A stretch of DNA of 64,000 bases from a virus. The notes under the pieces were generated by a model that did not search any database, was not told the origin of the DNA, and saw nothing but the letters and a program-made list of their open reading frames with translations. Positions 18,798-49,337 of the stretch are shown in pieces. The stretch spans positions 1-64,000 of IMG/VR virus record IMGVR_UViG_3300025450_000002, one strand, 5' to 3'. Made by a program: the position numbers and the translations under genes. Positions within the stretch are counted from its first letter, which is position 1, and each line of letters begins with the position of its first letter.

Positions 18798-19442
18798 ATG
18801 GTTACTAAAACCAAAAACCCCGTATTATCCCTCAACGTTACATCTTTAAAAGATGGTGCTTATCAACAAGCCAAAGCAAACGATACAATCCGTGTAGTTG
18901 CTCGTTATGCTATCAATAACATTGTAGGCTTTCCTGAAGATATCCCTAAGGAATCTTTAGAGCAGTTGAATGAGGGTTATCTCTTAAGATGGAATGAAAA
19001 TAATCCCCCTGTTACATACGCCGTTATCAATGACCATTTTATTACATACGACGAAGCAATCCATAAGGACTGTGAAAAGCGTGTTATTGGTGCTGATTAC
19101 ATTATGTCATTCAGTGGTCAGGCTTTTGGTGCATTAAAAGAGTCTGAACCATACTTACATGAGTTGTTAGTTCCAATTCGTAAGAAAATTCAAACTTACT
19201 GCAGTAACAGGGTCAACGATTTAAAGCGTGTAGGTAAACAGATAGTCAAAGAGTCAGACCCTGCTAGTAATACACGCTCATCAATTAAGAGTTTCAACGA
19301 AGTTGTCAAGGAAGTATTCGACGGCAAGAATGGTTTAGTTGCACGTTGCAAGACTGCTAAAAAGCAACGCAACGATACTGAAGCCGACGAAGTAAAATTA
19401 ACTCAATCAATTAACGCTTTCATGAAAGTATGGAATAGTTAA
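18798..19442 (+). CDS. early protein (214 aa), unknown
   Basis: ATG 18798 after TAAGGAGAAGTAAAC. Mixed alpha/beta: N-terminal ITV-rich region, central GADYIMSFSGQAFGALKESE, C-terminal basic helices (NRVNDLKRVGKQIVKESDP, CKTAKKQRNDTEADEVKL). Single-gene transcript: spaced from the preceding genes by ~200 bp and followed by a strong terminator, so probably expressed at high level very early. No family recognised. Confidence 0.7.
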   Translation: MVTKTKNPVLSLNVTSLKDGAYQQAKANDTIRVVARYAINNIVGFPEDIPKESLEQLNEGYLLRWNENNPPVTYAVINDHFITYDEAIHKDCEKRVIGADYIMSFSGQAFGALKESEPYLHELLVPIRKKIQTYCSNRVNDLKRVGKQIVKESDPASNTRSSIKSFNEVVKEVFDGKNGLVARCKTAKKQRNDTEADEVKLTQSINAFMKVWNS

Positions 19443-21550: not shown

Positions 21551-21579
21551 TTGTATAATATGTAAAGTTATAGTATACT
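21551..21579 (+). promoter_or_regulatory. early promoter B
   Basis: TTGTAT (21551-21556), exactly 17 bp, TATACT (21574-21579), nearly ideal for host sigma70. It shares ATGTAAAGTTAT and TATACTTATAACAG with promoter A, pointing to a common regulator or a duplicated promoter. It would drive the 30-aa membrane protein and the ATPase/VWA cassette. Confidence 0.65.
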
Positions 21580-21706: not shown

Positions 21707-22633
21707 ATGGACAGTATTAGAACCAACCTAGAAATGCCTGAGCATTTAATCTCACTAGCGACAAGCGCAGTATTAGTAAGCGTCGATGTCAGCGTGTGGT
21801 CAGCAACGAAACAAGATAGGGGTATCAGTGATGAGGTTACTACATCAAAGAATGCAGACAAGTCGGCAGGTCGCTACGTTAAGAATCTATTGGCGAACCA
21901 CCCGTCGCACAAAGCCATTGTGAATTATAGGCAGACTATATATAACTGGCTTCAGCGTCGCACTTATAAGTGGAATCAGTCACAAGAATTACTACCATGC
22001 GTTGACCTACCCAAGTTTAAGCAAGAGTGGCATGAACATGAAACTGCGTTCCACGTCCTCGTGGATACGTTTAAGAACCAGTATGATTCTATCGTATCGG
22101 ATATGGCTTTCAAACAAGGTGATATGTTTAACAGAAATGATTATCCACCCAAAGAACAGATTACATCAAAGTTTAGTCTTAACTTGTATGTGAGCGAAGT
22201 GCCTGTTAATGACTTTAGATGCAATATTGCAAGGGATATCGCAGATGATCTTTTTAGTTCATTGTCCAAGCAATCCAAGTCAATTATAGAGAACATAGCG
22301 AACGAACAAGTCGAAAGGCTAATAGATGTGATGCAGAGTATCTCGCATTGTTGTGGTGTGGACGAGTTAGTTCCGAAAGATGGTGGTGAAATAAAAACCA
22401 AGCGTCGCAAGATATACGATACGACGATACAGAAAGCGTTAGAGATGTGTGAGAGTTACAAAGTATTTAATCTTAAGCATGATAACGAGCTAGAACTGGC
22501 ACGTGCATCGCTAGAGAAAGTCTTACATGGTGTTACGGCAGAGGATATCCGAGATAGTGACGCTGTGCGTTCCAATGTCAAAGAGGGGGTTGATGGCATT
22601 TTGTCGAAGTTCGGTGCATTTAGTTGTGTATAG
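21707..22633 (+). CDS. DUF3150-like partner of the ATPase/VWA cassette (308 aa)
   Basis: ATG 21707 after TTAAGGAGAAGTT. The N-terminal strand VLVSVDVSVWSATKQDR followed by helical sequence resembles DUF3150-type proteins, which are found beside MoxR-like ATPases and VWA proteins in phages and mobile elements. Mostly helical; two clusters of charged residues near the C-terminus. The family call is from memory and should be treated as tentative; the genomic context (ATPase at 22783, VWA metallopeptidase at 24267) agrees. An 18-bp repeat lies inside it at 22049. Confidence 0.55.
   Translation: MDSIRTNLEMPEHLISLATSAVLVSVDVSVWSATKQDRGISDEVTTSKNADKSAGRYVKNLLANHPSHKAIVNYRQTIYNWLQRRTYKWNQSQELLPCVDLPKFKQEWHEHETAFHVLVDTFKNQYDSIVSDMAFKQGDMFNRNDYPPKEQITSKFSLNLYVSEVPVNDFRCNIARDIADDLFSSLSKQSKSIIENIANEQVERLIDVMQSISHCCGVDELVPKDGGEIKTKRRKIYDTTIQKALEMCESYKVFNLKHDNELELARASLEKVLHGVTAEDIRDSDAVRSNVKEGVDGILSKFGAFSCV
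22049..22066 (+). repeat. 18-bp inverted repeat, copy 5 (one arm mismatch)
   Basis: TTCCAC GTCCTC GTGGAT inside the 308-aa gene, encoding FHVLVD, in the same reading frame as copy 4. Confidence 0.6.
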
Positions 22634-22641
22634 GAGGTTTC

Positions 22642-22782
22642 ATGGATGAAGCATTAATGCAGTTTTATGAATGGAAAGAATGGGCAGTGCCATTCACACC
22701 CGAAGGGGAAAAGTTGTATGAAGCACAGAAGACAAGCTGGTTGGCTTGTTGGGAATTTTTAACTAATCAAAAGGAGAAGTAA
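22642..22782 (+). CDS. small Trp-rich protein (46 aa)
   Basis: ATG 22642 after TAGGAGGTTTC. MDEALMQFYEWKEWAVPFTP, then EGEKLYEAQKTSWLACWEFL. Its stop codon touches the start of the ATPase gene (TAAATG), and the ATPase ribosome site lies in its last codons, so the two are translationally linked. Function unknown. Confidence 0.65.
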   Translation: MDEALMQFYEWKEWAVPFTPEGEKLYEAQKTSWLACWEFLTNQKEK

Positions 22783-23856
22783 ATGAGTAAAATGAATTTT
22801 GTTCCAACAGTATCTATCAACGAGTTGCGTAAACTCATTCCTGTAATAGCATCAGAATTGACAGTAGTCATAACTAGCGAACCTGGTTGTGGCAAGACAA
22901 GTCTATTAAAAATGATGGAAGAAGATCTTGGAGATGCTTACCAATATATCTACGTTGACTGTCCTGTAAAAGATATGTCAGACATAGGTATGACAATACC
23001 GAACCACACTACCAAGACCCTTGAGTATTATGTGTCTAGTCTATTCTGTTTAGATGACCCAAGACCTAAGGTTATTTGTCTAGACGAGTTCATGAAGTCA
23101 CCCAAGTTATTGCAAGTTATCTTTACTCGCATGATGTTAGATAAAATGGTAGGCGATGTTCCACTACCACGTGGAAGCCTAATCTTTGCAACGAGTAACA
23201 ATGCTTCCGATGGTGTAGGCGACTCAATGCTTGCTCATGCTGGCAATCGTGTATGTAAGGTAGAGATGGCAAAGCCTGATACTAATACTTGGCTTCAATG
23301 GGCATCAGATAATAATATCTCTCGTGTTGTCAGAGCGTTCGTTGCGTTGTTCCCAAGAGTTCTCGCATCATATAGAGATGGCAACCAAGACGATAACCCA
23401 TACATCTTCAAACCTAACATGAACACCTTGTCATTCTGTTCGCCTCGTTCCTTAGCGAAGTGCGACGTGATTGTAAAGAATAGAGATGTCTTAGGTGAGA
23501 ATGCAACAATGGTCGCACTTGCAGGCACTATCGGTCAGAGTGCATCGGCAGATATGTCAGCGTTTCTATCGCTAGAGAAAACCTTAATAGATGTAAAAGA
23601 TATTCTCAAAGCACCAGAGTTAGTAAAGATACCTGACGAGATATCAGCGCAGTTAATGATTATGTTTCAGGCAGTAGATGTATTAGAGACGCAAGACGAG
23701 TTGACGAAGTTCATGTCATTCGTTAATAAGATTCCTAGTTCAGAAGTCCAAGCCGTATTCTTTACTATGATGATGCGTAATGCAAAGGCAATTAAGTTGG
23801 CTCGCAATAATGCACAGATTGCAGAGTGGGCTAAGAACAACCATGAATTATTTTAA
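22783..23856 (+). CDS. MoxR-like AAA ATPase
   Basis: 357 aa. Walker A EPGCGKTS at residues 33-40, Walker B VICLDEF with D101-E102, then SLIFATSNNASDGVGDSM, a sensor-1 region with the Asn after the strand. Subunit size and layout match MoxR/dynein-like AAA ATPases that act as chaperones for VWA proteins. It is paired with the VWA metallopeptidase three genes downstream. Predicted cytoplasmic hexamer that remodels a target using the VWA protein as adaptor; the target is unknown. Confidence 0.8.
   Translation: MSKMNFVPTVSINELRKLIPVIASELTVVITSEPGCGKTSLLKMMEEDLGDAYQYIYVDCPVKDMSDIGMTIPNHTTKTLEYYVSSLFCLDDPRPKVICLDEFMKSPKLLQVIFTRMMLDKMVGDVPLPRGSLIFATSNNASDGVGDSMLAHAGNRVCKVEMAKPDTNTWLQWASDNNISRVVRAFVALFPRVLASYRDGNQDDNPYIFKPNMNTLSFCSPRSLAKCDVIVKNRDVLGENATMVALAGTIGQSASADMSAFLSLEKTLIDVKDILKAPELVKIPDEISAQLMIMFQAVDVLETQDELTKFMSFVNKIPSSEVQAVFFTMMMRNAKAIKLARNNAQIAEWAKNNHELF
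23159..23176 (+). repeat. 18-bp inverted repeat, copy 6
   Basis: TTCCAC TACCAC GTGGAA, perfect arms, inside the ATPase gene (encoding VPLPRGS). Confidence 0.65.
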
Positions 23857-23866
23857 GGAGAAGTAA

Positions 23867-24073
23867 ATGTTAAAGACATTAAATATAACAGACGAAGAGT
23901 TTACTAGATTAACAGACCAAGCAACAATAGATATGTATGAAGAATACTTATCGGAATCAGAAGATAAAGTCACTAGCGATCTTCGTGAAGACACATTCAT
24001 CAATGGGTTTCGATTAGGTATGAAATTCGTAGCCTTATTAATTAAGAAACAGATAGAAGGAGAAAGTAAATGA
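23867..24073 (+). CDS. small acidic helical protein (68 aa)
   Basis: ATG 23867 after AAGGAGAAGTAA. Acidic (DEEFTRLTDQATIDMYEEYL) with a hydrophobic C-terminal patch (GFRLGMKFVALLIKKQ). Overlaps the next start by ATGA. Lies inside the ATPase/VWA cassette. Function unknown. Confidence 0.65.
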   Translation: MLKTLNITDEEFTRLTDQATIDMYEEYLSESEDKVTSDLREDTFINGFRLGMKFVALLIKKQIEGESK

Positions 24074-24264
24074 TTACGATAACACCAAGCGAGTTTATTT
24101 TAATAATATGGGGGATAGTTATGACTGTCTTATGGCAAAGAGCATTATACAAGTCAGAGGAGTTCAAACAGTTTACAGTTCGCAAGTTGCAAGAGATTGT
24201 GAAAGGCGAAGCGAAGATTGTAGACAATGGCGAATCAATCCAAATAATTAGGATAAAGGACTAA
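24070..24264 (+). CDS. small membrane protein (64 aa)
   Basis: One transmembrane helix near the N-terminus (EFILIIWGIVMTVLW, residues 7-21) followed by a charged cytoplasmic-type tail (KQFTVRKLQEIVKGEAKIVD). Translationally coupled on both sides. It may tether the neighbouring ATPase/VWA system to the membrane; inference from position. Confidence 0.65.
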   Translation: MITITPSEFILIIWGIVMTVLWQRALYKSEEFKQFTVRKLQEIVKGEAKIVDNGESIQIIRIKD

Positions 24265-24266
24265 TC

Positions 24267-25556
24267 ATGGAAATGAAAAACAAACAGGAAACAAGACTGA
24301 AGAAAGCACATATCGCATTGATGAAACACCCTGAGACTGCGTTGTATTCAGGTGTGATGCTTATGGGTAAGAGCGAGATAGCGGACGAAGTATTTACTGC
24401 ATATACAGATGGTGTGAACAAGAGATATTCTAAGCCATTCGTTGAGAAAATACTTATCGAAGCGAAGTTGCGTGGCTTAGTCTTGCATGAGAATCTTCAC
24501 GTTGCATTGAAACAGATTCCAAGAGGTAAGGATATGTTCAAGGAAGATAGACAGATTGCAAACATGGCAGCCGACTTTGTGGTCAACGACATAATAAAGA
24601 ATATTACAGGAACAGTTGCGAATGGTCACGAGCCTATCGTAGAGTTACCTGATGGTGCGTTGTATGACTCATTCTTTCATAATTGGTCGATGCGTGAAGT
24701 ATATAACCACATACGCAAAGAGAATCCTCAGCGACAGAAACCTAGTGATAGCTCATGTGATGAGCCTACCAAAGGCGATGGAGATGAAGATAGTAGTCCA
24801 CGTGGTAGTGGAACGATATATGCGAATGGCAAGCCTTATGATATTGGGCATCAATTCGATGAACATGACTGGGAATCGTATGTCGAAGGACTCAGCGACG
24901 AGGAACGCAAGGAGTTGGGAGATAAGATTGACCGAGCCTTGCGTGAGGGTGGTATGCTTGCAGGTCGTATGGGTGGCAAGATGCCTAGACAGATTAGTGA
25001 CTTGCTTGAACCGAGAGTAGATTGGCGAGAAGTCTTGCGTGAGTTTGTCGCTTCCACGATGAAAGGGAACGATGAATACACATGGCGCAAGATGAGTAAG
25101 CGTCACATGGCTAATGACATTTATCTACCAAGCATGGAGAACGAGACGATCGGTGAGGTTGTCGTTGCGATAGATACTTCAGGTTCAATCGGTGAGCGTG
25201 AGTTGACAGAGTTTGCAACGGAACTGGCATCAATCGTCGATCTTGTGTCGCCTGAAGCAGTTAGAGTTATATGGTGGGATTACGATGTTCATGGTGAGCA
25301 ATACTTCAAGCCTGAACATTACAGAGATATTGCATCATTACTAAAACCCTTAGGTGGTGGTGGCACTAGAGTCTCATCAGTCAACCATTACATCAATGAG
25401 AAGAAGATTAACGCAGAGTGTGTCATCGTGTTTACCGATGGTTATGTAGAAAGTGACATCGAGTGGACAATCTCTTCCCCTACCCTGTGGATGGTAACTC
25501 AGAACAAAGCACTTGAAGTCCCATCAGGTAAGAAAGTCGTAGTTAACAATGATTGA
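24267..25556 (+). CDS. metallopeptidase-VWA protein (DUF2201-like)
   Basis: 429 aa. N-terminal helical domain with the zincin motif HENLH at residues 74-78 (LVLHENLHVAL), as in the putative metallopeptidase half of DUF2201 proteins. Acidic/Gly linker at about 155-200. C-terminal von Willebrand A-like domain: VVVAIDTSGSIGE gives the MIDAS residues D303, S305 and S307; GGGGTRVSSV supplies the Thr; VIVFTDGYVE supplies the Asp. Partner of the MoxR-like ATPase. Such pairs act in metal insertion or in protein remodelling; here the substrate may be a host factor or virion part. Overlaps the next gene by 8 bp. Confidence 0.75.
   Translation: MEMKNKQETRLKKAHIALMKHPETALYSGVMLMGKSEIADEVFTAYTDGVNKRYSKPFVEKILIEAKLRGLVLHENLHVALKQIPRGKDMFKEDRQIANMAADFVVNDIIKNITGTVANGHEPIVELPDGALYDSFFHNWSMREVYNHIRKENPQRQKPSDSSCDEPTKGDGDEDSSPRGSGTIYANGKPYDIGHQFDEHDWESYVEGLSDEERKELGDKIDRALREGGMLAGRMGGKMPRQISDLLEPRVDWREVLREFVASTMKGNDEYTWRKMSKRHMANDIYLPSMENETIGEVVVAIDTSGSIGERELTEFATELASIVDLVSPEAVRVIWWDYDVHGEQYFKPEHYRDIASLLKPLGGGGTRVSSVNHYINEKKINAECVIVFTDGYVESDIEWTISSPTLWMVTQNKALEVPSGKKVVVNND
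24796..24813 (+). repeat. 18-bp inverted repeat, copy 7 (one mismatch)
   Basis: GTCCAC GTGGTA GTGGAA, inside the metallopeptidase-VWA gene, in the Ser/Gly linker. Confidence 0.5.
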
Positions 25557-25857: not shown

Positions 25858-26901
25858 ATGGATAGCACATTGAATTGGAATAGACTTACAAACATAACTA
25901 AAACTGTGAAACCCTTTCGTGGAACAACCAATAGGTTTCCTATCGCTAATAGATCTCATAATACAAAGTGTTTTTATGTAGAAGAGTTAGATGGCGAAAC
26001 TGTATACCGAGTGACGTATGGCTATCATTACAAAGAAATCTTCCATACTAAAGAAGAATGGGAGAAAGACCCAAATAAAATCTCTTGTAGAGACTGGGAA
26101 GAAGATGAGAGCAAGAAGTATGTTACCTACACTACTATACCTAGAGACTTAGGCATCGTGCGTTCTGACAACACGTTTCAGTTTACTGCCAAATACTACG
26201 GACAAGGTGACAATACTATGCTTAGTGGTTGGGGGCAAGGTTGGTTCTTTAGTAGTTCACGTCATGGTGGAATGGTATATATGAACGCATACAGAGGTGA
26301 TGATAGAAGTATCTTTCATCCGATATTCGAAGGTATGCGAATCAACATGAATACTATGATGCCCCATGAATCTTCTAACTATCAAGTGTTAGGTAGACGT
26401 GTATCACGTATTGATGCCAAGAAGTTTTTAACTAGATACGAAACATTCTACAAAGTAAATGAGGTTATGTTCAAAACGATTGATTGGAAGACATTGATGG
26501 ATACGGCAGTCGACGTAGTAAGTTCATTGGTAGATGAAAGTGAGTTACAAAACTATTACATCAGTAGCACATCAAACGAGAAAATAATAACGTGGGCAGA
26601 CGATAACATTGACGTAGCACCACTTGACTCAGCCCTAGCATTTGCAGTTGGGCATGACATAGGTAATATGTATCGACGAATGAGAGCGCACGCTATTGAC
26701 TCAAACAGTAATCAATTCCGTTGGATGGATTCAGAGCCAATGAATCTCTACGCAAATCTCAAGCGTAAGTTGAATCATGAACTATACAAGCGTCACCATG
26801 GAGTAATGAAAGACGTTACGTTCCCGATGGGCAAACCATATCCAGCAAGTAACTGGGGGATACGAGTTATGGTTGATGGTAAAGAAGTAAAACAATACTA
26901 A
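25858..26901 (+). CDS. early protein (347 aa), unknown
   Basis: ATG 25858 directly after the previous stop. N-terminal beta-rich half with Tyr/Gly/Trp-rich strings (YRVTYGYHYKEIFHTKEEW; GQGDNTMLSGWGQGWFFSSS; MVYMNAYRGDDRSIFHPIFE), then helices. Unknown in function, but proteins with this look occur in large early regions of related phages. No catalytic motif found. Confidence 0.65.
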   Translation: MDSTLNWNRLTNITKTVKPFRGTTNRFPIANRSHNTKCFYVEELDGETVYRVTYGYHYKEIFHTKEEWEKDPNKISCRDWEEDESKKYVTYTTIPRDLGIVRSDNTFQFTAKYYGQGDNTMLSGWGQGWFFSSSRHGGMVYMNAYRGDDRSIFHPIFEGMRINMNTMMPHESSNYQVLGRRVSRIDAKKFLTRYETFYKVNEVMFKTIDWKTLMDTAVDVVSSLVDESELQNYYISSTSNEKIITWADDNIDVAPLDSALAFAVGHDIGNMYRRMRAHAIDSNSNQFRWMDSEPMNLYANLKRKLNHELYKRHHGVMKDVTFPMGKPYPASNWGIRVMVDGKEVKQY

Positions 26902-26909
26902 GGAGAATC

Positions 26910-27227
26910 ATGGTTGAAATAGAAAAAGTAGAGATGCCCTACAAGGAATACGTTATTTCGGACAAGGTAGACGAGAGCCTAGCATATCTTTCTAACTATA
27001 CTGCTCGACGTGTTAGGTATAAGTTTCCTAATGGATACGGCGCTAGTGTTGTTATGGGTAATTTGTTTTATTCCGATGAGGGGACAGGTTTATATGAATT
27101 ATGTCCCATGAAAGATAATGCGTTGTGGTATGACGCAGTAGACCCTAGCAACAATGATGTGTATGGGTATCTCAATGATGAAGAGTTATATATTTTATTA
27201 ACGAAAATTTTAACGAAGGAGAAGTGA
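26910..27227 (+). CDS. early protein (105 aa), unknown
   Basis: ATG 26910 after AAGGAGAATC. Mixed alpha/beta with acidic surface (SDKVDESLAYLSNYTARRVR; GASVVMGNLFYSDEGTGLYE). No family recognised. Similar size and style to the 102-aa protein at 25549 (both end with a helix after D.ND...LL.E), so they may be distantly related. Confidence 0.6.
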   Translation: MVEIEKVEMPYKEYVISDKVDESLAYLSNYTARRVRYKFPNGYGASVVMGNLFYSDEGTGLYELCPMKDNALWYDAVDPSNNDVYGYLNDEELYILLTKILTKEK

Positions 27228-27228
27228 A

Positions 27229-28164
27229 ATGAAATACGCAATAGAAGGAATTACAAAGCAAGCAACAATAGACTATATCGAGAGTTCACCAGTAAAGAAA
27301 CTCATATATGAATTGAATTACAAGTATGGCTTAAAAGCGTTGACTGTAATAGCAGTCGAAAAACGAGGGGAAAATGTCCGTCACGAGGTTGTGTTAACCG
27401 ACCCTATGGGTGGGTTTGCCGTAGGTAGAGTATGGACAACAGTAGACAATAAAGACATCGTGTATCACTATCGTTCGCCTTACGCTTCAAAGGATAGAGG
27501 TAGGACTAGTGAGGATAGAGAAACTTATTATGGTAAGAAATTATCATCTTTGATGAGTGTGCTAAAAACTAACGAAGTAATACCTACTAAAGATAGTCCA
27601 CAACTATTAACTATTCATAATCGTATTTTCGCCAATGCTAATTACTCTTTACAAGAAACACACGGTAAACACAGAAAAGATGTAGAGTTAACTTTAGATG
27701 AACAACATTCTTTATTGAGATACGCACTAGGTGAAACTACTACTCTATTTGATGAAAATAAATGTAAAAAAATACTTGACAAATATAATACGTTAGATAA
27801 AATAAAACAAGAATCAGACGAAGATGTAGATAGGTTCTTCAACAAAGGTTTCTATGCAGTTGGTGTAGATATGTTTAATCATTTAATAGTGGGGAAAGTT
27901 GTGAAAAATAAATCTAGTTACGAAATAGTAGAATCATTCGAGAGGGTGATGGACTTCAGTAAGCATGAACATCTACAAGCAATCATGACTATGCAAAAAG
28001 TTTATCATGAGCAACAAGGTAAATACACTAAGTTCTACGGAAATTACATTCCACTATACAGTGGATACCTAAAAGACCTAGACATCATTCAGATGAATAA
28101 TCGTGAGCCACACATTCATGACTTAGCTTGGACTCTTATCCCATGCACAGCACTTTCCGTATGA
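27229..28164 (+). CDS. early protein (311 aa), unknown
   Basis: ATG 27229 after AAGGAGAAGTGAA. Alternating strands in the first 120 residues (RHEVVLTDPMGGFAVGRVWT; VYHYRSPYASKDRGRTSEDR), helical second half. No recognisable motif. Stop overlaps the next start (ATGA at 28161-28164). An 18-bp repeat lies at 28049. Confidence 0.65.
   Translation: MKYAIEGITKQATIDYIESSPVKKLIYELNYKYGLKALTVIAVEKRGENVRHEVVLTDPMGGFAVGRVWTTVDNKDIVYHYRSPYASKDRGRTSEDRETYYGKKLSSLMSVLKTNEVIPTKDSPQLLTIHNRIFANANYSLQETHGKHRKDVELTLDEQHSLLRYALGETTTLFDENKCKKILDKYNTLDKIKQESDEDVDRFFNKGFYAVGVDMFNHLIVGKVVKNKSSYEIVESFERVMDFSKHEHLQAIMTMQKVYHEQQGKYTKFYGNYIPLYSGYLKDLDIIQMNNREPHIHDLAWTLIPCTALSV
28049..28066 (+). repeat. 18-bp inverted repeat, copy 8 (one arm mismatch)
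   Basis: TTCCAC TATACA GTGGAT, inside the 311-aa gene. Confidence 0.55.
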
Positions 28165-42410: not shown

Positions 42411-42594
42411 ACCTGAATGGTTATTGCCGTTTGAAGGCATGGGGATTGGGGATAGTTTCTTTATTCCTACCCTGCGCCCAGCGGAACTAATTTATTCCAT
42501 TGACTGCGGCGCAAAGCGTGCTGGTGTTAGAGTGAAGTCATATGTTGCAGAAAAGGAAGGCTACATAGGCGTACGTTGTTGGCGTACTGCTTAG
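42385..42594 (+). CDS. small conserved phage protein (69 aa)
   Basis: Overlaps the primase-helicase by 26 bp. EPEWLLPFEGMGIGDSFFIP, TLRPAELIYSIDCGAKRAGV, ending VRCWRTA. Phrase 'IGDSFFIPT...' recurs in small proteins of phages and MGEs that may bind DNA. Last gene of the rightward unit; its TAG overlaps the stop of the leftward ejection gene by four bases. Confidence 0.65.
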   Translation: MINPNQIIEPEWLLPFEGMGIGDSFFIPTLRPAELIYSIDCGAKRAGVRVKSYVAEKEGYIGVRCWRTA

Positions 42595-45500
42595 CGTGGT
42601 CTTTCCATACCATAAGCTTCAAACATATTCATCATCTGATACTTAACTAAGTTTTGTTGGTATTGATTAATCTTTAACAACTCGCTTTTCATAGCTGGAT
42701 CATAAGATTGATTCTCTCTGATCTTGTTTGCATCTGACCTTAACTTATTTAAATTCTGATTGATAGCTTTGTTATAGTAATTAACGACTAGTTCATCCAT
42801 CGGTCTTTCAGCTCTAAATCTAGCCATCTGATATGGGTCAGTCTTAAACTCATTGATAACACGTTGTTTTTCTTTTATCTCAGTTTCCATTTTAGCGAAT
42901 TGACGGCTATCAACACTAGACTTAGAACCAAAGAATGAACCAAATAACGGCACATCATTTTTAACATTAAATTCTTTTTTGCCATCGGCTAATTGAGACA
43001 TGCCATATGCTAGTTCTCCAATACGTGTAACACCATCAGCATAGCTGTTAGCGAAGAAGTATAAAGAATTAGGACTTATATCAAGTTCACCTAAACTTTC
43101 ATTAGCCATCCACACCGCTAAGTCTTTCCATACTTGTGGTACTTTATCTCCACCAACATAAGCATCGCCCATCTTACGATTTGAGTCATTATAAATACTT
43201 TGACCAAGACCATTCTTATTCATAACAAACTCAACTAATGGACGAACAGTGCTTGGCATCATTGAGTCAACAGCAAATGCTAGTGGGTCTTCTACAGCAT
43301 TCATACGTGATACTGGAATAGGTACAAATGAATCTAAAGAGATACCTAAGAATATATTAGACAACGCACTCTTTAGTGACTGGGATCCAGAAAGTACTGA
43401 AGCAAACTGTGCGCCAGCCGCAGCGAACGCACCGAGTCCAAAGCCCCAAGGAATCTGTATAGGTGTTCTATCTTCACTTAACCAGCGTGGTAAATGGAAA
43501 CGAGCAAATCTAGTCCACTGATCCATGTTGTCGTTTAGTACATCATTACGACCCATATCATCGTCGTCTGCCGCAAGTGCTGCCATAGCGTATGCTGTCA
43601 TACCCATACCTATTAATACACCTACCATTTTTTGCGCGTTTCTTTTTTTAACCATGTAATTACGTTTAAAAGTTTCTTGTGCTTCTGTATTTTCAGCTAG
43701 TCCAGATACAGTACCGATTGCATCTTTTAATGCGCTATCCACACTTCTAAATGCTGGAGCAACTGCTTCTATAGCACGCACAGCGCCAGTAGCAGATGGG
43801 CGGAAGAACATATAGAACGCACCCATAGCTTTACCCCATTCACCGACCTGTTCAAAGTTTGCAAGGTTTTTAGCGAAAGCGGCAGCACGTGTTTTAGCAG
43901 CCTCTTCAGTCATATTTTGAGTCATGTAATTACTTTTCATTAACCCATATGCTGCGGCACGGCTAGACAATTCAAACATATTGTTATATATGTCCATAAA
44001 CTTATCTAGTTGTTCTTTGCTTTTTACTATTCTTGACTTACCTAATTCTTTATCTAATGAATCCCAGTTAGACTTTAAGCTAATGCCTTCTAGATATGAA
44101 GTCTGTCCACCTTCTCTTATGAACTCAAGCATATTTTTAATTAGTGGATCTTTATCAGCGTACGCTTCCAACTCTTTGAATCTACCTTTTTCTATCATGT
44201 AAGAAACTTTTGCTGCTTTACTTAAACCACCTTTAGCTACTTGTGCGCTAATCTGTCCTATGAGTTTGGCGGATGCAACTGGACCAAGTTCAGCACCAAT
44301 AGCCCAAGCGTTAGTTAAAGTATCACGTACATAGTTTAATGGTGCAAAGTTGTAGTTATAACGGGTATGTAATTGACCAAAGAAACTAGTAATATTATTA
44401 GCCCAATCAGTTAGAGTACTTGTTTGCTGATAGGTACGACGTAAACTATCTAGCATAGCCTTATCATTAATTTCTAAAACATATATGCCACCATTATCAT
44501 CGTAATGAAGAATAGTTTTTTCTTTAGGTATTTTATTTAATCTATCAGTATCACGTTCATTAAATGCTATATAGTCTTTTACCACACCAGCAATTACACC
44601 TTGTCCGTTAGGATTGTATTTACCTTTTGCTAAAAGATTTTTAATTGATAGGGTTAATCCTTTACGACCTGCACGGGTAGATGCACGTATAGCCTCAGAC
44701 ATGGTTTGTAAAACTGGATTATCTGAAACAGTAAAACGACCATCAAACCCATATTCTTTATCTTGCAAGTCTTTACCTAGACGTTTACTATTGCCAACAT
44801 CTAAGTCTTCATCTACCTGACTGTGTTCATTAAATTTGCTTTTACCTCTAAACGGCGCATAGTTATCGTAGTTATAAAAGTTAACTCTATTGTCTACATA
44901 ATCAGACCAATAGTCAGCTTCTTTATTAAGCATTTTTGTTACGTCATTTAATTCTTTTAAGTTAGCAAGAATGCTATCTAGTATTGGTTTTAAGTTAGCA
45001 TTCTCTTGATATGCTTTTATACGTGAAGCAAGAATATTTCTATCCACACCAAGTACGTTGTATCTTTCATGATTGATATTTAATAAGTCTTTATTACCTT
45101 GCTGCCCTTTAGATAATAAGCTACTAAATTCAGATGCATACCTAGATGCAATGGTATCTAATTCTTTACGTAAAGCTGTTGCTTGATCTTTAGTTAAGCG
45201 TTTAGTGTCAAGTAATTTTACTATTTGGTTACGTCTTTCAGCTGGGCTTAGTGTATTGTTATTTAAAACTTTTTTATCACTAAGTGGTACAGTTAAAATA
45301 TATTTAACCATGCGGCGCTCACCTTCGTGCAAGGCTTCTAGCAATTTATGGACTGTACTTAAAGCACCATCAGTATCAGAATTCATAGCCTTAGCCAACT
45401 TTGCAATACCTTTTTCTAGGCGTTCACGTGGCGCAGCAACATATCTACTAAATAAATTTTTAGCTCTAGTATTAGAAAGGGTTATAAATGTCCAAGGAGT

Positions 45501-48500
45501 ATTTATCTTGTCATCATTTTCCCAGTTAACCATCTCTGCAAGTTCCATATTGTTTTGCAAAGCTTTAGCGTTATAACTTCTGTTTTGAAATAATGTAGCC
45601 ATTTTTCTTCTACCAGGATCAGTAGTAAAGAATTTAGTTATGCTGCTAATCTTTTTTGGTTTTTGTTTAGCTGGTACTGAATAAGGATCATTTTCTTCAG
45701 TGGTAAATAAATCGCCTTCTTTACCATGAAGTTTTTCTTCTGTCTTAAGTTTGGTAACTTTTGGTTTACCAGCAGCGCCTTGTTTAGCGGCAGCTAGAGG
45801 AGCAACTTCAATGCCAGCTTCTGGTGCTTCAAGAATGTCGCCTAGTATTTCTGATACTTCTAATAATAGATTACCTTCATAACCTGGCTGCATGCTATAA
45901 AACATTTTTCCAGGTTTATATTTTTGTTTAGCTTCTTTAACTGGTGTTTCAACACCGAACTTCATTTCTCCTACATCTGTTGTAGTAATACCTTCTTCAT
46001 CAGTTTCTTCATAAAGACCTTCTTTATCCATAGGAGTTAAACTCTTAGATATTGCTTCAAATAATTCTGGTCTTAATTGAGTCTTTGTAGGTCCAGCGTT
46101 AACTAAACTATACAATTTAGCGAATGCTTGAGTTATGTTATCCCATACATTTTTTACTATGCCAACAGTATATTTAGCAAGAAGGCGTACTTGTGTATTA
46201 GCAAGTTCATTTTGAAATTTACTATCAGTCATAGCATAAGTTACAAACTCGTAAAGATTTTCAAATGCATTACGATACTTGCCGCCAAGCTTCTTTTTAG
46301 AAAAATCAAAAATCTTTTGTAAGTGTTCTAATGCTTCACGCTGATTCTGAGATAAAGAACTAGGGTCAGTCAAAAATTTATTAATTAATTTAACAGTACC
46401 GGCGTGAGTAATTTCATGAAGTACAGTCGATTCATCAAATCCATTTTTAGTAAAATAAAATGTATCAGTCTTAGGATCATATTCAGCTAATTTGCCTTCA
46501 CGTTCTAATCGCTGGATAATTTCATTATTTGTGTCTGTAACTACTTTAGAATTAAAAGTAATTTCGCTTAGCGCTCTCGCTAAAAATCTATTAACAAATT
46601 TGGTAAGTTTAGATTGGCGTTCTATTAAACTTCTAACAGCCGCTTTACCTTCATCAAGCTCGCCTCTTTCTAAAGTTATATTTTTACCTTCAGCACTATT
46701 TATTAAACCTAATAAAGCACCATTAATATTGCTATTTTCTAATGCAGTGCGTACTTCATTAGATACTTGTTTACCTTTACCTTGAGCAGATTCTTCAGTA
46801 GCTTTTTCTTTAGCAATACGTTCTTGTGCAGCAGCATGTGTAGCTTCACTAGTTTGACGCGTTTTTAATTGTTCAATACCAGCACGAGTTACACCGCGTA
46901 TTCCTTTACCTTCTTTTTCTAGTTGTTCAGCAACTGCAGTAAATCCGGCATTTTGTTCTGCGACTGTATTATTTTTAACTGAACCCATGTAGGCATTTTT
47001 AGCTTCAGAAGATAACCCACCCCATGCAGGTAGGTCTATACCTAATTCACGTTGATACGCTTTACGGCTATCTTCATAACCGTTAATAACTTTTTGTTGT
47101 CCAGTAGATACAGCGCCTTCACCTGTATCACTTTTTTGTTCTATATAATTAGCTAATGCTTTAGCTGCGTTATCAAAAGCACTAGCCGCTGGGATAACTG
47201 TAGGAGCTTGTTGCCTATATTCTTTTTTAATTGCTTCTAATTCTTCTTTAGATTTTATGTCTGCTAATGATTTACCTTGCGCTGCAAGATATTGTTCAAT
47301 GCCTTGTCCAGTTTCACCAGTTTTTAATTCACTTAAATATTTATCTTTTTCATCAGCTGTCAAGTCTTCCCATGCTGGTATTTGCACGCCTTTTTCAGTT
47401 AAAGCTTGGCGCGATAATTCATACTCGTCTCTTAACTCAGCATCAGTTTTAGTTTGAGGAATAGTTTTACCAGCTATTTCTTGTAAGTCAGCTTGACGTT
47501 GTGCTTCTATAGCAGCTTTTTCTTGTTGATCTTTTTCAAATGCCGTTTGCAGTTGAGCAGTTTGTTGCTGAGAAGTTTGTTGTATAGCAGCTTGTCGCTG
47601 CGCTATCTGTTCTGGTGTAGGCGGTATTTGTACAGCGCTTTGTTGATCTAATGGATTGAGCTGTGTCGTTTCTCCAGCTCCAGGCTGGACTTCAGTAATA
47701 TTAGGTCCGCCCAGTCCTCCCTGCTGATCTCCTTTAACTGTGGTGGGGTTGTTATTTGTCTCCACTCCGCTAGATATTGTAGTGCTAGTTCTATCTGTTC
47801 CAGTGTCAGTTGTTCCAACATCTTTACCTCCTAATTTTGCTAGATGATCTTTAATCATTTGTACGCCATTAGCATTTGTAGTGCCAATAGGTATAGTTAA
47901 TCCTAACGCTTTTGCTATTTTTCTATATTCAGATTGTTTAATTTTTTCGCCACCATCTATACCAGCAATATACTGATTAGCTGCTTCTATAGCATCTTGG
48001 GGGGTTACTTGTGTTACTGAATCCGGTATTAAATTTTCATCTTCTTTTTTAGCAATGTTCTGAACAACAGAAGCGGACTCAGCTAATGCTTCACCTTTTT
48101 CATCTGTAGAGGCATTTAACATTGCAGCTTCTTCAGGTGTTAGCGTATCTACTTTCTTTTCAATATTTTTATCTAAGCCAGTAAACGAGTCTTTGCCGCT
48201 AGCTTCATTACCAGGCGATGTTTCATGAGCACTATTCATAAAGGTACGTACACCACCCATACCACCAGGTACTATAGACATAGCAAAAGACGCACCAGCA
48301 GTATTGATGTAATCTTTTAAAGCTTCTGCATCTGTTAAAGATAGACTAGCGCCATAGCGCTCTGCCATAGTTTGGATTTCTTCTGGTAATAATTCTTTAG
48401 CGCCAGTAGTTCCGATCGCTTTTGCTACGTCGTAGAATAGTTTTCCAGTTGACTCTTGGCTTAAACCTTTTAAGTTAAGTCCTTTAGCACCTTGTAATAA

Positions 48501-49337
48501 AAACTTCTCAGCAGCAAAGTCAGCTATTGAGTGTATAGCAGCTGCTGGTAATACTCTACCTAAATCTAAATCTTCAGCTGTTTTACCTTGTCTTTCTAAT
48601 TCACCTAAGGCTCTGTTTGTAGTTTCGCCAGCGCCATGCATAATAGCTTGTCCACCAAGACCTGCTTGTACGCCCATAGTTTTAAGAGTAGATTTTGCTT
48701 CTTTTTTAATTAATTCTTCAGCTTTATCTTTAGCGCCTTCTTTAATTAATGCTTCGGCTTGCTCTTTGATTCCTTTTTTAATTAATGTTTTAGCAAGCAT
48801 ACCTTCTAAAGCGCCAGGTACTGCGCCAACACCCATTCCAGTTACTGCACCTACACCAGCACCAATACCAGTAAACGCAGCAGTCTCAGCTAAATTACCT
48901 AGGCCAGAACCAATTTGATATGGAAGCCAATCAGTTAATACAGAACCAATACCTTTGTTCCAAGCTTCAGTAAGTTCATCCGATGGTTTAACTCTTTGTT
49001 GAGCTTCAGCTTCGTGCATTCCTTGCACACCGCTTTCCATCATTTCTTTATTACCTAAAGTCTTTCCAGCTAATACTTTTGCAGCATTATATGTGCTTTT
49101 AATTCCGGGTAACGTGTTTGAAATACCACGCATAAAATCACTAGATGTATCATCTTCTGATAGTACTTGCGGACCAGTAGGTGCAGATTTTACTTGCTGT
49201 GGAGTATGCCCAATTTTTTTACTAAAGTCTTCAAAAGGTATATCAGAATAATGTTTTTCATGTAACCCTTTAACTAGGTCGTTATCTGACATATCATCAT
49301 ATTGAGGATACTGTTGTCTAAACTCTTGTAAGTTCAT
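42591..49337 (-). CDS. giant polyvalent internal virion (ejection) protein
   Basis: 2248 aa. Head: EFRQQYPQYDDMSDNDLVKG, typical of such proteins. Residues ~155-180 hydrophobic Gly-rich. Gln-rich coiled coil around 550-850. Zincin motif HEITH at residues 974-978 (STVLHEITHAG) followed by YEFVTYAMTD. C-terminal region with an LPD38-like stretch (QKMVGVLIGMGMTAYAMAAL, then FARFHLPRWLSEDRTPIQIP). Large polyvalent proteins are injected with the DNA and act as transglycosylase/peptidase or toxin-like modules. Leftward, convergent with the early unit. Confidence 0.8.
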   Translation of the reverse strand: MNLQEFRQQYPQYDDMSDNDLVKGLHEKHYSDIPFEDFSKKIGHTPQQVKSAPTGPQVLSEDDTSSDFMRGISNTLPGIKSTYNAAKVLAGKTLGNKEMMESGVQGMHEAEAQQRVKPSDELTEAWNKGIGSVLTDWLPYQIGSGLGNLAETAAFTGIGAGVGAVTGMGVGAVPGALEGMLAKTLIKKGIKEQAEALIKEGAKDKAEELIKKEAKSTLKTMGVQAGLGGQAIMHGAGETTNRALGELERQGKTAEDLDLGRVLPAAAIHSIADFAAEKFLLQGAKGLNLKGLSQESTGKLFYDVAKAIGTTGAKELLPEEIQTMAERYGASLSLTDAEALKDYINTAGASFAMSIVPGGMGGVRTFMNSAHETSPGNEASGKDSFTGLDKNIEKKVDTLTPEEAAMLNASTDEKGEALAESASVVQNIAKKEDENLIPDSVTQVTPQDAIEAANQYIAGIDGGEKIKQSEYRKIAKALGLTIPIGTTNANGVQMIKDHLAKLGGKDVGTTDTGTDRTSTTISSGVETNNNPTTVKGDQQGGLGGPNITEVQPGAGETTQLNPLDQQSAVQIPPTPEQIAQRQAAIQQTSQQQTAQLQTAFEKDQQEKAAIEAQRQADLQEIAGKTIPQTKTDAELRDEYELSRQALTEKGVQIPAWEDLTADEKDKYLSELKTGETGQGIEQYLAAQGKSLADIKSKEELEAIKKEYRQQAPTVIPAASAFDNAAKALANYIEQKSDTGEGAVSTGQQKVINGYEDSRKAYQRELGIDLPAWGGLSSEAKNAYMGSVKNNTVAEQNAGFTAVAEQLEKEGKGIRGVTRAGIEQLKTRQTSEATHAAAQERIAKEKATEESAQGKGKQVSNEVRTALENSNINGALLGLINSAEGKNITLERGELDEGKAAVRSLIERQSKLTKFVNRFLARALSEITFNSKVVTDTNNEIIQRLEREGKLAEYDPKTDTFYFTKNGFDESTVLHEITHAGTVKLINKFLTDPSSLSQNQREALEHLQKIFDFSKKKLGGKYRNAFENLYEFVTYAMTDSKFQNELANTQVRLLAKYTVGIVKNVWDNITQAFAKLYSLVNAGPTKTQLRPELFEAISKSLTPMDKEGLYEETDEEGITTTDVGEMKFGVETPVKEAKQKYKPGKMFYSMQPGYEGNLLLEVSEILGDILEAPEAGIEVAPLAAAKQGAAGKPKVTKLKTEEKLHGKEGDLFTTEENDPYSVPAKQKPKKISSITKFFTTDPGRRKMATLFQNRSYNAKALQNNMELAEMVNWENDDKINTPWTFITLSNTRAKNLFSRYVAAPRERLEKGIAKLAKAMNSDTDGALSTVHKLLEALHEGERRMVKYILTVPLSDKKVLNNNTLSPAERRNQIVKLLDTKRLTKDQATALRKELDTIASRYASEFSSLLSKGQQGNKDLLNINHERYNVLGVDRNILASRIKAYQENANLKPILDSILANLKELNDVTKMLNKEADYWSDYVDNRVNFYNYDNYAPFRGKSKFNEHSQVDEDLDVGNSKRLGKDLQDKEYGFDGRFTVSDNPVLQTMSEAIRASTRAGRKGLTLSIKNLLAKGKYNPNGQGVIAGVVKDYIAFNERDTDRLNKIPKEKTILHYDDNGGIYVLEINDKAMLDSLRRTYQQTSTLTDWANNITSFFGQLHTRYNYNFAPLNYVRDTLTNAWAIGAELGPVASAKLIGQISAQVAKGGLSKAAKVSYMIEKGRFKELEAYADKDPLIKNMLEFIREGGQTSYLEGISLKSNWDSLDKELGKSRIVKSKEQLDKFMDIYNNMFELSSRAAAYGLMKSNYMTQNMTEEAAKTRAAAFAKNLANFEQVGEWGKAMGAFYMFFRPSATGAVRAIEAVAPAFRSVDSALKDAIGTVSGLAENTEAQETFKRNYMVKKRNAQKMVGVLIGMGMTAYAMAALAADDDDMGRNDVLNDNMDQWTRFARFHLPRWLSEDRTPIQIPWGFGLGAFAAAGAQFASVLSGSQSLKSALSNIFLGISLDSFVPIPVSRMNAVEDPLAFAVDSMMPSTVRPLVEFVMNKNGLGQSIYNDSNRKMGDAYVGGDKVPQVWKDLAVWMANESLGELDISPNSLYFFANSYADGVTRIGELAYGMSQLADGKKEFNVKNDVPLFGSFFGSKSSVDSRQFAKMETEIKEKQRVINEFKTDPYQMARFRAERPMDELVVNYYNKAINQNLNKLRSDANKIRENQSYDPAMKSELLKINQYQQNLVKYQMMNMFEAYGMERPR

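Follow-up and report, generated by a model that had tools for sequence, protein, structure and literature searches.

NorQ-NorD, RavA-ViaA and CbbQ-CbbO share the principle of an AAA ring with a VWA cochaperone, and none of them is known to have a DUF3150 subunit or the zincin domain of DUF2201. In NorQD the VWA domain sits as a plug in the AAA ring, and action on the target, unlike ring binding, depends on the MIDAS (PMC9976466, PMC13036017). In phages, N4 gp24 and gp25, listed as N4-like core genes and reported as middle genes, middle-transcribed (PMC4193335), are neighbouring genes for an AAA protein and a DUF2201 metallopeptidase-VWA protein, and Iyer et al. 2021 (PMC7824862) describe in jumbo phages a MoxR AAA+ protein with a vWA protein bearing an N-terminal metallopeptidase, the same domain architecture as in the phage analysed here; theirs is another phage group, and the part of that paper treating this pair mentions no third subunit. 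The AAA and DUF2201 pair is already known in phages from these two cases, what is new here is the ternary composition and a distant link to plasmid DUF3150 sets. The open literature (a library of 5.39 million papers, subscription journals lying outside it) returned no paper on 'DUF3150', the ternary set therefore appears undescribed there, and it returned no functional study of phage DUF2201 or gp24/gp25.

We compared with these systems a cassette from a 64,000-nucleotide stretch of viral DNA (the window), in which three genes, orf1, the AAA ATPase and the metallopeptidase-VWA protein (the trio), lie with several small genes (Table 1). Every gene named by the initial annotation within 21707-25556 is open and on the + strand, and the trio and the 68-aa and 64-aa genes overlap a neighbour or are separated from one by at most ~10 bases, counting the small ORF before the ATPase. 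The two small proteins named there exist, the first soluble and the second with an N-terminal TM segment. The leader AAGGAGAAGTAAATG, or one much like it, recurs at several cassette starts, and the ribosome-binding sites of the 68-aa and 64-aa genes are good. Two further small ORFs were absent from that annotation: the TM peptide, which is probably the first ORF of the unit, and the small ORF before the ATPase (~22642-22782), whose start is more likely ATG 22642 (46 aa), preceded by AGGAGG, than the listed TTG. The membrane protein is less conserved than the trio members. A comparison of orf1, AAA, the membrane protein and VWA gave pN/pS of 0.14-0.31, which shows purifying selection on them and, with the conserved residues described below, marks them as working, selected genes. 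A sigma70-like promoter had been proposed ahead of the unit, and we reject it: no upstream site reached 9/12, the best candidate by eye (TTGTAT-17-TATACT, 21551-21579) matches at 8/12, and the upstream region holds 26 promoter-like sites versus 38.2 in shuffles, fewer than by chance. Downstream of the trio, genes of 347 aa and 311 aa (25858-28164) recur in most relatives, their families having no Pfam or PHROGs match.

Table 1. Genes of the cassette and its immediate flanks, in window coordinates.
Feature	Coordinates	Strand	Remarks
TM peptide, 30 aa	21605-21697	+	KD 2.53; weakly conserved; homologues at E~1e-4 in several relatives
orf1, putative third subunit, 308 aa, DUF3150-like, mostly helical	21707-22633	+	deep profile versus DUF3150 profile
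Small ORF, listed with TTG start	22624-22782	+	rarely conserved; homologue in few loci
AAA+ ATPase, 357 aa	22783-23856	+	phrog_1297; AAA+ motifs
Soluble protein, 68 aa	23867-24073	+	confined to close relatives
N-terminally membrane-anchored protein, 64 aa	24070-24264	+	KD 1.82 at residue 2; in many relatives, not all
DUF2201 metallopeptidase (zincin HENLH + D103)-VWA protein, full MIDAS	24267-25556	+	PF13203, 3.2e-28; PF09967, 1.6e-16
Downstream genes, 102 aa and 347 aa	25549-26901	+	follow the trio in close relatives

The VWA protein exceeds the cut-offs of both DUF2201 models (DUF2201_N 99.5 vs. 23.2 bits; DUF2201 61 vs. 26.4 bits), and its fold matches VWA domains including that of the NorQD complex, whilst a DUF2201 profile found no match among solved structures. 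All zinc-site residues are present (HENLH H74/E75/H78, N99 and D103), giving the HExxH and acidic third ligand (H74 E75 H78 D103) by which we recognise DUF2201, and the MIDAS is complete (D303/S305/S307/T367/D391), so that the zincin HENLH-VWA protein with intact MIDAS read from the letters is confirmed. Across 103 distinct phage relatives E75, H78, N99, D103 and DxSxS are invariant and H74 is kept in 102, whilst T367 and D391 do not vary among the 100 long enough to include them; the catalytic Glu is kept in 103/103 phage proteins but lost in 4/77 cellular relatives. In a quick VWA tree, which has some long branches (Pag-Yong1) and unsure exact placements, trio-bearing phages cluster without forming one clade, the starred branches forcing at least two changes of trio label. 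The PHROG label 'HNH endonuclease' was rejected for this protein, as Pfam gives DUF2201; its family, phrog_1314, carries that label as a whole, and many phage records with matches to phrog_1314 are annotated 'HNH' or 'homing endonuclease'. The analysis thereby exposes a widespread misannotation of a metallopeptidase-VWA family.

The ATPase belongs to phrog_1297 (E = 5e-52), its top PDB profile match is midasin (E 1e-12), and it carries Walker A (GEPGCGKT), Walker B (DE101-102), sensor 1 (N139), Arg finger (R156) and sensor 2 (R222) motifs, of which Walker A G35/G37/K38, E102, N139, R156 and R222 are invariant in 94 phage relatives. We took complete AAA+ motifs and a neighbouring VWA gene as the mark of a MoxR-type ATPase, and this protein has both. 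The MoxR-like assignment of the initial annotation stands on these motifs and this neighbour but not on Pfam, where the generic AAA models all fell below cut-off (MoxR/AAA_5 13.5 of 22 bits); some ATPase homologues from the same kind of trio do exceed the AAA_5 cut-off.

The orf1 protein had been called DUF3150-like, a claim that holds at profile level and not as Pfam membership. It has no Pfam match and no convincing PHROGs match, DUF3150 (PF11348) was absent even at E<=10 in a direct genome search, and the best Pfam DUF3150 score among the family members seen was 16.8 of the 24.9 bits required. By hhalign, a profile of 28 orf1 sequences aligned to a DUF3150 profile built from conjugative elements and bacterial genomes with a score of 75.3 (96.5%, 230 columns), against 17.6 for the reversed profile, no more than 20.4 for any of 60 column shuffles and <=19.4 for seven unrelated profiles. 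Of the hhalign comparisons only this deep profile versus profile worked, a profile from 17 orf1 sequences having been negative with a lone DUF3150 protein. The orf1 HMM also matches some DUF3150 proteins directly (best 7e-6, small set). A cyanophage homologue bears the depositor's label 'DUF3150 domain-containing protein'. The AlphaFold2 model is moderate (mean pLDDT 73, pTM 0.45), and Foldseek returned no PDB structure for it at E<=0.001. On its sequence profile, orf1 is best described as a distant DUF3150 relative, outside the Pfam family proper, that holds the equivalent place in the gene set.

With the VWA and the 308-aa orf1 as queries, IMG/VR gave 42 and 33 loci respectively, and in these the order was orf1-AAA-VWA wherever all three genes were visible. 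The orf1 profile also matches in a Pseudovibrio locus and a Polaromonas-MAG locus reached when cellular sequences were scanned with the VWA alignment, and the Polaromonas orf1 protein as query yielded 80 further viral loci. Together the scans with these two orf1 members, in which AAA and VWA played no part, brought in 113 environmental viral loci; the complete trio is present in 87 of them, and in the other 26 a contig edge lies on the side of the missing gene (listed contig ranges). Gene order amongst the 87 was orf1-AAA-VWA (32), AAA-orf1-VWA (9) or AAA-VWA-orf1 (46), always on one strand, the linkage of the trio therefore survives rearrangement. The one known exception to co-occurrence is the cultured phage Tunturi_3, which has an orf1 homologue and no VWA detectable with the VWA profile or Pfam VWA. 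Neither of the outcomes named beforehand as counting against the cassette was seen: DUF2201 and, at profile level, DUF3150 matches are there, and in relatives no frameshift lies between the genes. One contig binned to an actinobacterium MAG, probably of phage origin, also has the trio, and its VWA shares 60% identity with that of the window. Two genes from the trio VWA of Planktothrix phage Pag-Yong1 lies a gene annotated as anti-CRISPR AcrVA2 (L083:637-1677, - strand), and another, 279-aa protein beside the ATPase of this phage is not orf1. Elsewhere in the window, 18798-19442 encodes a 214-aa protein shared with relatives L028, L061 and L067, several relatives having two neighbouring paralogues.

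Compared with N4, both the AAA proteins (tblastn 22.6% identity) and the metallopeptidase-VWA partners are homologous, but N4 and three other N4-like loci checked have no orf1/DUF3150-like gene, and the head genes of the window phage, whose portal and TerL are nearest to those of HTVC023P/Pag-Yong1-type phages, do not appear to be of the type of N4 and its family, the Schitoviridae. The N4-like phages thus keep AAA and VWA without orf1, and the third subunit is therefore not universally needed. A Band_7/SPFH protein lies near the orf1-less pair in N4 (L002:5325-6161) and Vibrio phage PJN101 (L003:8430-9731).

In pR997, classed as SXT-type by its bet/exo region, and in P. aeruginosa pMKPA34-1, DUF3150 itself has a CbbQ/NorQ-type AAA on one side and a VWA protein on the other. 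As in the phages, AAA, DUF3150 relative and VWA share one cluster, but the AAA is CbbQ/NorQ-type, the pR997 VWA is CobT-like, and neither VWA scanned (pR997, pMKPA34-1) has the DUF2201 peptidase domain of the phage protein, the peptidase is therefore no shared feature of phage and plasmid sets. Transfer of SXT falls no more than 10-fold in deletions of bet, exo, s067, s068 and s070 (PMC2791158). Purely from gene order beside bet and exo, we infer that s067-s070 are the AAA-DUF3150-VWA set of SXT. Given the relation of orf1 to DUF3150 and the plasmid trio, phages and plasmids may therefore share a machine.

The chaperone-like remodelling that the initial annotation drew from MoxR-VWA pairs remains the best-supported reading, given the AAA and VWA domain matches and genes that are not split in relatives. 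We favour, at evenly balanced confidence, a three-component AAA+ remodelling peptidase that acts in the infected cell on a host or phage-replication target and does not serve virion building. The AAA protein, to judge from its motifs, would form a ring, on which the VWA protein would dock as cochaperone and grip the target with its MIDAS metal by analogy with NorQD, where ring, docking and MIDAS dependence have experimental precedent (PMC9976466, PMC13036017). The N-terminal zincin domain would then cut or trim the engaged target, and the DUF3150-like protein would be a required third subunit of the AAA-VWA-orf1 complex, probably an adaptor or scaffold. The machine would work inside the cell in early or middle infection, where its host or phage-replication target would be remodelled or cleaved. 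The catalytic, MIDAS and ATPase residues, essentially invariant over deep divergence, support this machine, as do the purifying selection, the co-occurrence of the three genes, the distant DUF3150 relation with its plasmid sets, and the all-or-none presence and replication-side position described below. Against it count Tunturi_3, with orf1 and no detectable VWA, the N4-like phages that have the pair and no orf1, the lack of a DUF2201 domain in the two plasmid VWA proteins, and the moderate orf1 model (pTM 0.45).

The alternative that survives best, though we think it rather unlikely, is that the AAA-VWA pair is a chaperone-protease of virion assembly or maturation that folds and trims structural proteins, an option also raised by the initial annotation. 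It is the published proposal of Iyer et al. 2021 for jumbo phages (PMC7824862), the AAA/VWA pair of Acidianus two-tailed virus (ATV), cited in PMC7824862 and PMC7911831, is a precedent, and N4-like phages have gp24/gp25 in their gene core (PMC4193335). The nearest TerL and portal proteins, however, are those of DSL-LC04, 023Pt_psg01, Pelagibacter phages HTVC023P/HTVC027P and Planktothrix phage Pag-Yong1/MinM2, and whole-record profile searches for VWA, AAA and orf1 in seven distinct related portal/TerL phages found the trio all-or-none: Pag-Yong1/MinM2 carries all three genes, whilst HTVC027P, HTVC023P, DSL-LC04, 023Pt_psg01, Caulobacter GB2A and Roseobacter CRP-901 have no part of it. As six of seven such phages lack the trio, this head type does not depend on it, and the pattern speaks against an obligatory role in virion assembly and weakens the proposal made for jumbo phages. 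A related set also occurs in conjugative elements, and these build no virions, the trio lies in a + strand replication-side cluster away from the - strand head genes, and N4 gp24/25 are described as middle genes. Between the two options originally offered, host-protein inactivation is more likely than virion maturation. The HTVC027P infection transcriptome is unusable for dating the trio, as this phage lacks it; among 20 window proteins scanned with PHROGs none matched an RNA polymerase, and a 2248-aa protein (42591-49337, - strand) has a C-terminal LPD38 large-polyvalent-protein domain and no PHROG match.

Quite doubtful is a metal-insertion or chelatase-like remodeller of the NorQD or CobST type, in which the HENLH metal would serve transfer or structure and not peptide cleavage: NorQD does insert iron (PMC13036017) and the conjugative counterparts have CbbQ/NorQ-type AAA proteins and, in pR997, a CobT-like VWA, but the phages keep the catalytic Glu without exception, even though a few cellular relatives lose it, and the window genes scanned include no recognisable metalloenzyme target. 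That the phage carries a defence (superinfection exclusion) of kin with the MoxR-vWA ternary conflict systems, to which the initial annotation had also pointed, is very unlikely, since although such systems exist in bacteria (PMC7159879) and a small membrane partner is present, Pfam finds in the cassette proteins neither a third component (VMAP, iSTAND, FtsH) nor a VWA with a fused effector, and PADLOC gives no convincing model, only weak generic ATPase matches (E>=0.001).

The link drawn here gives the AAA-VWA pair a third subunit to test and joins the conserved SXT-type AAA-DUF3150-VWA set to N4 gp24/gp25, part of the gene core of a model phage group. We tentatively suggest that one ancient AAA/DUF3150/VWA remodelling machine may be common to phages and conjugative elements, to which the phage VWA would add a zinc peptidase that the plasmid version lacks, and that this machine may protect or establish incoming DNA in a new host cell.
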